DNA of 35,118 nucleotides, taken from positions 1-35,118 of the forward strand of contig VBMN01000059.1 in NCBI GenBank assembly GCA_005878385.1, given 5' to 3'. The DNA comes from Methanobacteriota archaeon (lineage in GTDB: Archaea; Thermoplasmatota; Thermoplasmata; RBG-16-68-12). Below the pieces are notes generated by a model. The model searched no databases, was not told where the DNA came from, and was given only the letters and a program-made list of their open reading frames with translations. The position numbers and the translations under genes are program-made. Shown here piece after piece: positions 3,036-5,844 of this stretch (positions are counted from its first letter, which is position 1; each line of letters starts with the position of its first letter).

Positions 3036-3917
3036 TCAGCGGAACTTTTCTCCCGTGAGTCGCTCGAACAGACCCACGTAGAGATCGCTCACCTGCTTCG
3101 TCACGTCGTCCGGGAGAGGCGGGATGTCCGGCTCGGGTTTCCCGGCGGCCCGGGCATCCATCAGCGACTGATGGTACCCGATCTTTCGGTAGTACTGCCG
3201 GACGAATTCCTTACTGAGTTCGACTTGTTTTCCTCTCTCATACTCGGACCGATCCCAGAACCGATCCTCGTCCGCCGTGCCGAAGGTATCGACGAGCATG
3301 AGCCGCCGCTCGCCGTCCATGGCGAACTCTTTCTTCCCGTCGACATGGATGAGCCCTCTTCGTTTCACCTCGTCGTTCAGGCGCGAATCAATCATGACGA
3401 CGGAATCGACCATCGTGTCATATTCGCGAGGACTGAGCTTCGAGATCGCGAGGGCCTCCTTCGTCGTGAGCTCTCGGTCCACCTTCTCCAGTTTGGTCGT
3501 GACCTCCACGAACGGTTTCGGGAGCGGCTCTCCGTAACGAGGCGTCCGGCCGGGTGGAAATCCCGCGTCTTCGGGTCGAATCCGCCCCTCCTTGAGGCGG
3601 TCGTGAAACGATCCCGCGACATAGTACCGAGCGATCACCTCGAGCGGGATGAGGAAGTTCGTCGTCTTCGACGTGATCTTGTCGTAGTCCGGGATCACCT
3701 GGACGCGGCGTACCCGCATGCGGTTCCCGCCTTCGAGCCGGAGGAAATGTGTCCGGATCCCCAAGTCCGCCACGACCTGGAACCAATGGGCCGAGGTGCG
3801 ACAGAGCGTCTCTCCCTTGTGCGGCACCTTCGTGGGGATGACCTTGTCGAAGACACTAATCTGGTCCGTGAAGAAGAACTCGAGTTCCTCCGGCGAGACC
3901 TCGTAGACCTCCTTCAC
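3036..3917 (-). CDS. purC: SAICAR synthetase (phosphoribosylaminoimidazole-succinocarboxamide synthase)
   Basis: Purine biosynthesis enzyme joining CAIR and aspartate with ATP to give SAICAR. Recognised from FTDQISVFDKVIP, KGETLCRTSAHWF, IPLEVIARYYVAGS and the SKLSPREYDTM region near 160-170. The coordinates given run from the first canonical start (GTG, 3915-3917). However, the same frame upstream encodes IRFLRKGKVKEVYE, which is the conserved N-terminal nucleotide-binding GKxKxVY motif of the family. The real protein should therefore begin about 8 or more codons earlier. No ATG, GTG, TTG or CTG exists in frame between 3917 and the upstream in-frame stop near 4071. The best-placed candidate is ATT at 3939-3941. 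Function is certain; the start is not. Confidence 0.93.
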   Translation of the reverse strand: MKEVYEVSPEELEFFFTDQISVFDKVIPTKVPHKGETLCRTSAHWFQVVADLGIRTHFLRLEGGNRMRVRRVQVIPDYDKITSKTTNFLIPLEVIARYYVAGSFHDRLKEGRIRPEDAGFPPGRTPRYGEPLPKPFVEVTTKLEKVDRELTTKEALAISKLSPREYDTMVDSVVMIDSRLNDEVKRRGLIHVDGKKEFAMDGERRLMLVDTFGTADEDRFWDRSEYERGKQVELSKEFVRQYYRKIGYHQSLMDARAAGKPEPDIPPLPDDVTKQVSDLYVGLFERLTGEKFR

Positions 3918-3976: not shown

Positions 3977-5032
3977 TTAGGGGTTTTGGTTCTCCCGGTA
4001 CTCGAGATGCTCCGCGACCTCGTCGGCGAGCTCGGGGCCGAAGTGCTTCCGCAGGAGTTGGAGGCCCAGGTCAATCGAGGCGGTGACGCCGCCGGCCGTC
4101 GTCACCAGGCCATCCTCGACGATCCGTTGGTCGACGACCTGTGCAGTCCCGCGAAGTTCGTCCATTGCGCTCCGGTGCGTGGTCGCCTTGCGTCCCGCGA
4201 GGAGACCCGCGGCCATCAGGATCAGCGCTCCGGTGCAGACGCTGGCCACGGGTTTCTCCGTTCCGAAATCCAGAAGGGATTGCAACCACTCGGAGTCTTT
4301 CACGACTTCCGCTCGACCTTGCCCCCCGGGCACGATCACGAGATCCAGATCCGCCAGATCCCGTCGAACCTCGTGCGCGAGGAACTTCATCCCGAGGGCG
4401 CCCGTGATCTGCTCCTTCAACGCTCGGAAACGCACCGTGAGATCGAGCGGCGGATGCAGTTGCTTCGCCTTGGCGAGGACCTCGTACACGCCCACCGCGT
4501 CGAGTTCCTCGACTCCGTCGAACAGGACCGCGATAATCTCGTCCTTGCGGATCCCCCATTTTGCCGCGAGCTCTCGGACGATTTCGCCTTTCCGTCGGGG
4601 GCTCACATGGATCGTCACCGCGCCCGTGAAGATGCCGTCCTCATAGTGGAATTCGTTGCTGAACACCGTGTCCGCATCGAACAGGGCGAGGGCCGATTCC
4701 GCGACCTCCCGCGGACCCCCGGTGACCAGGACGACCTTACTCGACTCGGCCTGCAACCAGGGCACGAACTCCTTCGCGCCCGGCATCGGTCGGAGTTCTC
4801 TCGCCGCTCGTATGATTTGCGCTTGCGTGAGTCCCCGGAGGCGTTGCGCCCGCATCCGGAATCCCTCTTCCCAATCGATGTGTCCGTCGATCCCCGCCTG
4901 CGTGATCGCGGCGACTTCCTCCTCCTTGCCGAGGAGGGCGGCGAGTTCGGGCAGGAACTCGTTGAAAATCAGTGTGTTCTCTAAGTCGAAAACAACGAGC
5001 TTCAGTTGCGAGTGCCCTATCCCAGGAGACAA
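3977..5032 (-). CDS. Fusion of a HAD (SerB-like) phosphatase N-half and a DJ-1/PfpI domain
   Basis: Chimeric protein of 351 residues. Residues 10-167 are a SerB-like HAD domain: motif I appears as FDLENTL (Asp16, with Glu18 where a second Asp is usual), motif II as VLVTGG (Thr104), and motif III as a Lys near 148 in SPRRKGE. Where HAD motif IV (GDxxxD, metal binding) should follow DEIIAV, the sequence continues as LFDGVEELDAVG, the start of a DJ-1/PfpI domain of the isonitrile hydratase/AraC-type subgroup. That domain (about 166-350) has nucleophile Cys266 in SVCTGAL, then AGLLAGRKATTH and DGLVTTAGGVTASIDLGL. The HAD half probably lacks phosphatase activity; the DJ-1 half looks intact. The start is TTG at 5030-5032, just after a TATA-like CATATAA (about 5039-5045), so the true start may be slightly downstream. 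Substrates are unknown. Confidence 0.85.
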   Translation of the reverse strand: MSPGIGHSQLKLVVFDLENTLIFNEFLPELAALLGKEEEVAAITQAGIDGHIDWEEGFRMRAQRLRGLTQAQIIRAARELRPMPGAKEFVPWLQAESSKVVLVTGGPREVAESALALFDADTVFSNEFHYEDGIFTGAVTIHVSPRRKGEIVRELAAKWGIRKDEIIAVLFDGVEELDAVGVYEVLAKAKQLHPPLDLTVRFRALKEQITGALGMKFLAHEVRRDLADLDLVIVPGGQGRAEVVKDSEWLQSLLDFGTEKPVASVCTGALILMAAGLLAGRKATTHRSAMDELRGTAQVVDQRIVEDGLVTTAGGVTASIDLGLQLLRKHFGPELADEVAEHLEYRENQNP

Positions 5033-5094
5033 CAGGGGTTATATGAGTCCTCTCTCGGGCGGTGCGCGACATGGCACGAGAGCAGCGGGGAGTT

Positions 5095-5844
5095 TCAGAA
5101 GACTTCCATGTCTCCGTGGACTTCGAGTCCCTGATCCGTGATGCTGTACGGTTTCACAGATCGCGGGTGCTTGAGCCGCCGCATCTTGATGACCTGGATC
5201 ACGAGCTGAACCTCGCCGTTCTCTCGCTCGTTGAAGCGCATGCCGATCACGCCGTCCGAGACGTACTCCACGAGGCCGTCCCGAGAGGACCGCGGGTTTT
5301 CGTCCTTCACCTCCGCCGTGAAGACGCAGGTGGCCCCGGTGGACTTGAGCTGCTTGCATAACGCGAACAGCTTCTCCCGCCGTTCGGTGTCGTCGGCGAA
5401 AAGCATGTTCAGCAAGCTGATCGAATCGATCGCGACGCGGGAGGCGCCGCTTCGCTTGATGAAATCCGGAAGCTCGGAGCGAATCCGGGTGACGGTCGTC
5501 TTCGCGTCCACCGGCTCGAGTTTCACGATGTGGAGCTTCTTTTCCTTCAGATACCGTTTGAGATCCCAACCGAACGACGCGGCGTTTGCGACCACGGAAT
5601 CGACGTCCTCCTCAAGGGAGATGAAGACCGCTTTCTCTCCGTTGATCAGGCCCTGCATGAGGAACTGCAGAGCGAACGTGGTCTTGCCGGTCCCGAAGGA
5701 ACCGAGGACCGTGATGATGTGTCCCGCCGGGACGCCGCGGCCGAGCATCTCGTCGAGCCCGTCGATCCCTGTGAGCACAAACCCTTCTTGGATTCCTTCG
5801 TCTGTCGCTTCCGTCGCTTTGGGAGCTGCTTCCGCGTCCGCCAT
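5095..5844 (-). CDS. KaiC/RadA-family ATPase (catalytically intact member)
   Basis: Single-domain RecA-fold ATPase of the archaeal KaiC-like (RAD55) group, 249 residues. The Walker A loop is GSFGTGKT (48-55). The catalytic acidic pair is in FISLEED (Glu78, Glu79). Walker B ends at Asp140 in RVAIDSISLL. The opening GIDGLDEMLGRGVPAGHI is diagnostic of the family. The start ATG (5842-5844) is preceded by a Shine-Dalgarno GAGGTGA. It lies 9 bases downstream of a second, degenerate KaiC homologue, so the two are very likely one operon and may form a hetero-complex. Archaeal single-domain KaiC proteins are linked to signalling and motility regulation (compare ArlH), but no specific role can be assigned here. 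Confidence 0.9.
   Translation of the reverse strand: MADAEAAPKATEATDEGIQEGFVLTGIDGLDEMLGRGVPAGHIITVLGSFGTGKTTFALQFLMQGLINGEKAVFISLEEDVDSVVANAASFGWDLKRYLKEKKLHIVKLEPVDAKTTVTRIRSELPDFIKRSGASRVAIDSISLLNMLFADDTERREKLFALCKQLKSTGATCVFTAEVKDENPRSSRDGLVEYVSDGVIGMRFNERENGEVQLVIQVIKMRRLKHPRSVKPYSITDQGLEVHGDMEVF

Follow-up and report, generated by a model that had tools for sequence, protein, structure and literature searches.

The open reading frame at positions 3977–5032 of the window (the whole 35,118-nucleotide stretch of DNA analysed here) joins the first part of a SerB-like HAD phosphatase to a DJ-1/PfpI domain, and is probably the product of a recent, lineage-specific in-frame deletion within a recurrent loss of this HAD gene, rather than an established new architecture. 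This account is supported by the ancestral order of two separate genes, the segment lacking here, a frame that stays open and the independent deletion or absence of the HAD gene in congeners; it is weakened by the lack of visible decay in the HAD half and by the dependence on one draft genome. The source is a metagenome-derived soil Thermoplasmata draft (179 contigs, 77% complete). It probably belongs to Ca. Angelarchaeales, because its congeners, also soil draft genomes, resemble the Angelo-soil Thermoplasmata described under that name (PMC9038741).

The ORF check of the window gave a single open frame on the minus strand, with 351 amino acids when counted from a TTG. In this frame, Pfam placed HAD at residues 13–168 (E = 1.1e-17) and DJ-1_PfpI at residues 166–328 (E = 4.7e-26), both far over the cut-off, so that the chimera lies far beyond chance; for the DJ-1 half, PF01965 reached 92 bits against a gathering score of 26.6. 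The SerB model TIGR00338 gave 114.5 bits on the ORF, under its curated cut-off of 144.15, and 148.8 and 144.3 bits on the intact orthologs of the congeners G013 and G011. As judged from the sequence, translation probably begins at the CTG at 5005 (MKLVVFDLENTL...) and not at the TTG at 5032, since in G008, which is the closest relative and was our reference for the window, an in-frame TGA directly precedes the conserved CTG AAG CTC, and since a TATA-like CATATAA lies ~30–40 nt upstream of the CTG. The conserved N-terminus of the HAD orthologs reads (M)KLVVFDLENTL. The features of the locus are listed in Table 1.

Table 1. Features of the fused ORF and its surroundings, in window coordinates
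Feature	Position	Strand	Basis or remark
Fused ORF, probable limits (342 aa when started at the CTG)	3977..5005; from TTG reaches 5032	-	TGA before CTG AAG CTC in G008
Truncated HAD-IB (SerB-like) half	4529..5005	-	Has motif I DLENTL, motif II VTGG and the motif III K; lacks motif IV and the C-terminal ~59 residues
Junction GACGAGATTATCGCGGTC/CTGTTCGAC (DEIIAV/LFD)	4517..4543	-	Alignment against congeners
DJ-1/PfpI domain, LFDGVEELD...SVCTGAL	3980..4528	-	First ~5–6 residues replaced by HAD residues IIAV
TATA-like CATATAA of the HAD gene, retained	approx. 5032..5046	-	Shared with G008; degraded in G016
KaiC-like ATPase, upstream neighbour	5095..5844	-	Conserved synteny
SAICAR synthetase PurC, downstream neighbour	3036..3917	-	Conserved synteny

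A preliminary description of this DNA had the HAD half cut just before motif IV, and the alignment bears this out. The half ends ...KDEIIAV precisely where its relatives read ...KDEILAVGDGMMDV, that is, motif IV (GDGMMD in G008, GDGxMD in the remaining complete orthologs of the genus); the GDxxxD motif is absent from the window ORF, with LFDGVEELD in its place. The motif II Ser/Thr and the motif III Lys are found in VTGG and SPRRKGE, both conserved in the alignment, and the motif I nucleophile Asp is present in DLENTL, giving DxE. The same description had also remarked on this DxE in place of DxD, which is real but is not damage: DLENTL was invariant in 12 of the 12 aligned HAD orthologs, two of which belong to a different family within the order. 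Decay was therefore rejected as the reason for DxE; by the alignment, it is an ancestral trait of the whole ortholog group. Catalysis is possible with DxE, ThrH-type enzymes being an example. The HAD half of the window would have no catalytic activity, since it has lost motif IV and with it the aspartates that bind Mg2+.

The DJ-1 part begins LFDGVEELD and retains VCTGAL. Its Pfam match and the SVCTGAL motif agree with the earlier view of a complete DJ-1/PfpI domain with its nucleophile Cys, and both this Cys and the acidic GVEELD are conserved in the window and in nearly all congeners. The DJ-1 half appears to be the part that is being kept. In G011, the DJ-1 copy (L043 2288–2851) has lost the nucleophile Cys and reads VSSG instead of VCTG.

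The breakpoints were compared by alignment with the congeners. Between the HAD end ...GATTATCGCGG and the DJ-1 sequence TTCGACGG, the window is 221 bp shorter than G008, and the distance from HAD to DJ-1 is 242 bp in G008, 241 bp in G001 and 21 bp in the window. Relative to G008, the window lacks the HAD motif IV, the C-terminal ~59 residues and the stop, as well as the promoter box, the start and the first ~5 residues of DJ-1. A single ~221-bp deletion between the adjacent genes probably removed all of the HAD elements and, in the same step, the DJ-1 promoter, start codon and N-terminal residues, leaving one ORF that would be read from the HAD promoter, with the phosphatase dead and DJ-1 retained.

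It had been proposed that two genes were fused by deletion between similar IAV-containing stretches, with a joint that matches both families. The deletion between adjacent genes stands, given the segment lacking against G008, whereas the role of IAV does not. The two breakpoints have no more than 2–3 bp in common, and the DJ-1 N-termini of the congeners (VRIGIFVFDG, VRVGILLFDG or VRMAIFVFDG) contain no IAV, so that the IAV of the window comes from the HAD side only and the double match is wrong at the DNA level. Homologous recombination between similar stretches is consequently not indicated, and the IAV-mediated deletion was rejected. In the fused protein, the IIAV of the HAD stub sits exactly at the place of the first DJ-1 strand, VGIL, and a single strand would have to serve both folds.

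The gene order in the genus is KaiC, HAD, DJ-1, PurC, all on one strand. Complete and separate HAD and DJ-1 genes were found at the locus in 8 of the 18 congeners (G008, G001, G005, G013, G006, G011, G002 and G003), which, together with the 221 bp by which the window falls short of G008, supports the earlier suggestion that a recent deletion joined the two genes. In G009, HAD and DJ-1 are on different contig ends, in G004 the contig end falls inside HAD, and G012 gave no match. There is no HAD gene in the slot in six of the 18 congeners and in one sister-genus genome; the HAD-less G014 and G007 are 98% and 91% complete. In G014, an unrelated ORF of ~200 aa on the opposite strand (L036 3157–3798) fills the slot between KaiC and DJ-1. 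In G016 (L032 3159–3330), what is left of HAD is its first ~17 codons and a fragment of its tail, after which comes an intact DJ-1 gene. In the tree of KaiC, DJ-1 and PurC, the window forms a fully supported group with G008, G001 and G016. The absence of HAD is scattered over this tree, in keeping with loss or replacement having recurred at the locus. No other strong SerB match was found in the genomes of the HAD-less G007, G010, G014 and G015, and this HAD is therefore dispensable in the genus. The deletion in the window would be one step in the repeated loss of a dispensable gene, rescued in frame.

The promoter boxes also differ among these genomes. Congener DJ-1 genes have a conserved TTAAG-type box 25–30 nt before the GTG or ATG, and HAD has a TATA-like box of its own; the position and conservation of these boxes suggest that they are promoters. 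The window has lost the DJ-1 box but has the same HAD box as G008, CATATAA, which would now drive the fused ORF. G016 is the opposite of the window, with the DJ-1 box kept and the HAD box degraded, and the deletions in the two genomes are independent.

A HAD–DJ-1 fusion was found in none of the 18 congeners, and among the matches listed for 400 genomes of the class, down to weak ones, and for 293 of the phylum, no frame besides that of the window spanned both domains. Whether relatives carry the same fusion had been raised at the outset, and none of those covered does. Relatives with both genes whole and unfused, which the preliminary description had named as refuting it, tell against the fusion only as an established architecture. 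The single apparent spanning match, in G056, was rejected: the HAD gene there is of the ordinary kind, extended by chance and lacking a DJ-1 domain. Frames of ~400 aa among the distant HAD matches were likewise dismissed as fusions: the one that was opened (G055) is an ordinary SerB, with DxD and an ACT-like N-terminal extension. In G003 (L045 2561–3808), HAD and DJ-1 are in the same reading frame with a stop and a short linker between them, one stop codon away from another fusion. The PurC match of G010 (L040 3431–4232) is split over two frames (residues 1–36 and 55–293), which suggests an indel or frameshift. In the PurC gene of the window (3036–3917), DNA identity to G008 falls to ~69% in two adjacent 90-nt blocks at about codons 121–180, compared with ~81–94% elsewhere, with the excess changes on the window branch; this looks like local replacement or a mosaic.

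The HAD half shows strong purifying selection: with G001 as outgroup, 13 synonymous changes in it fall on the window branch together with 2 unambiguous nonsynonymous ones, against ~40 expected if neutral. The neutral share of this branch is at most ~8–12%, or 27% on the harshest count, and the dN/dS of ~0.08 is similar to that of intact orthologs. This lack of decay means that the deletion is very recent, that the half is still constrained, or that the junction is an artefact. An assembly or library artefact, in which HAD and DJ-1 are separate in the true genome and ~220 bp are missing from the contig, is conceivable but doubtful; it would suit a metagenome-derived draft of this many contigs and such completeness, a fusion that is a singleton, and two halves still under full constraint. 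The junction contains no Ns, however, and the 2–3 bp that its breakpoints at most share would be far below the k-mer able to mislead a de Bruijn assembler. The junction sequence was found only in loci of the window's own genome, and the missing HAD tail is on no contig of that genome. The synonymous distance between the window and G008 is 0.51 for KaiC, 0.54 for HAD and 0.51 for DJ-1, and this equality on either side of the junction indicates that both halves come from one lineage and argues against the joining of two organisms. The comparable but different deletion in G016 also tells against an artefact. A strain polymorphism, with fused and unfused alleles coexisting and the assembler choosing the deleted one, would accord with a locus that is highly variable among close congeners and with the absence of decay expected of a young allele; as no second allele occurs in the source genome, we consider it very improbable.

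The constraint on the HAD half also bears on a real, selected fusion, in which the truncated HAD would be retained to serve the DJ-1 domain in binding or as a structural element. The intact frame and the retained HAD promoter are in keeping with it, as is the dN/dS. No relative among the congeners and the listed class and phylum matches has such a protein, however, and the truncated HAD is without a central part of its fold. The AlphaFold model of the fusion had a mean pLDDT of 77 and a pTM of 0.54, with low confidence at the junction (residues 160–168) and in the N-terminal part of DJ-1 (190–214), compared with 89.7 and 0.83 for the intact HAD of G008, modelled from a shallower alignment of 12 sequences only. 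The low confidence at the junction may speak against such a fusion, although this comparison, which covers the fusion and the intact HAD, is suggestive only. A Foldseek search confirmed a SerB-like and an isocyanide-hydratase-like half. We regard a selected fusion as unlikely, and find it a little harder still to credit that purifying selection maintains the truncated HAD as a ligand-binding or folding module on the DJ-1 enzyme, which would be a new two-domain protein caught at birth. The new protein with a binding-only HAD half of the preliminary description finds no support, the form being a singleton and DxE being normal for the ortholog group.

If the deletion is accepted, the locus offers a clean, datable case in which gene loss has merged two neighbours into a single ORF while sister species still have the parents unfused. 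In annotation, phosphoserine phosphatase is not an appropriate name for the ORF, nor should the ORF be used as evidence of a functional link between HAD and DJ-1.

Both halves can be placed beside known proteins. Among solved structures, the intact G008 ortholog has its best relative in SerB of HAD subfamily IB (M. jannaschii PSP, PDB 1f5s; E = 8.1e-26). Like SerB, the window has motifs I–III and a TIGR00338 match, the latter below the cut-off; unlike SerB, its entire HAD ortholog group has DxE and not DxD, and the window copy is without motif IV and the C-terminal part. For the DJ-1 half, the best solved relative is in the isocyanide hydratase/DJ-1 superfamily (P. fluorescens InhA, PDB 3non; E = 5.3e-21). 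The window has in common with InhA and DJ-1 (TIGR01383, DJ-1 family) the nucleophile motif SVCTG and, upstream of it, the acidic region VEELD; it scores under the curated cut-offs of all specific DJ-1 subfamilies and, unlike its DJ-1 relatives, has its N-terminal ~5 residues exchanged for HAD residues. The joining itself resembles gene fusion by deletion between adjacent co-directional genes, in that the parents are neighbours on one strand, a stop and a start have been removed and the frame is maintained. Unlike in a plain deletion fusion, the upstream partner has also lost a catalytic motif, which makes the event a pseudogenisation no less than a fusion; it looks like an ordinary gene loss with a clear before-and-after, and not like a new kind of protein.
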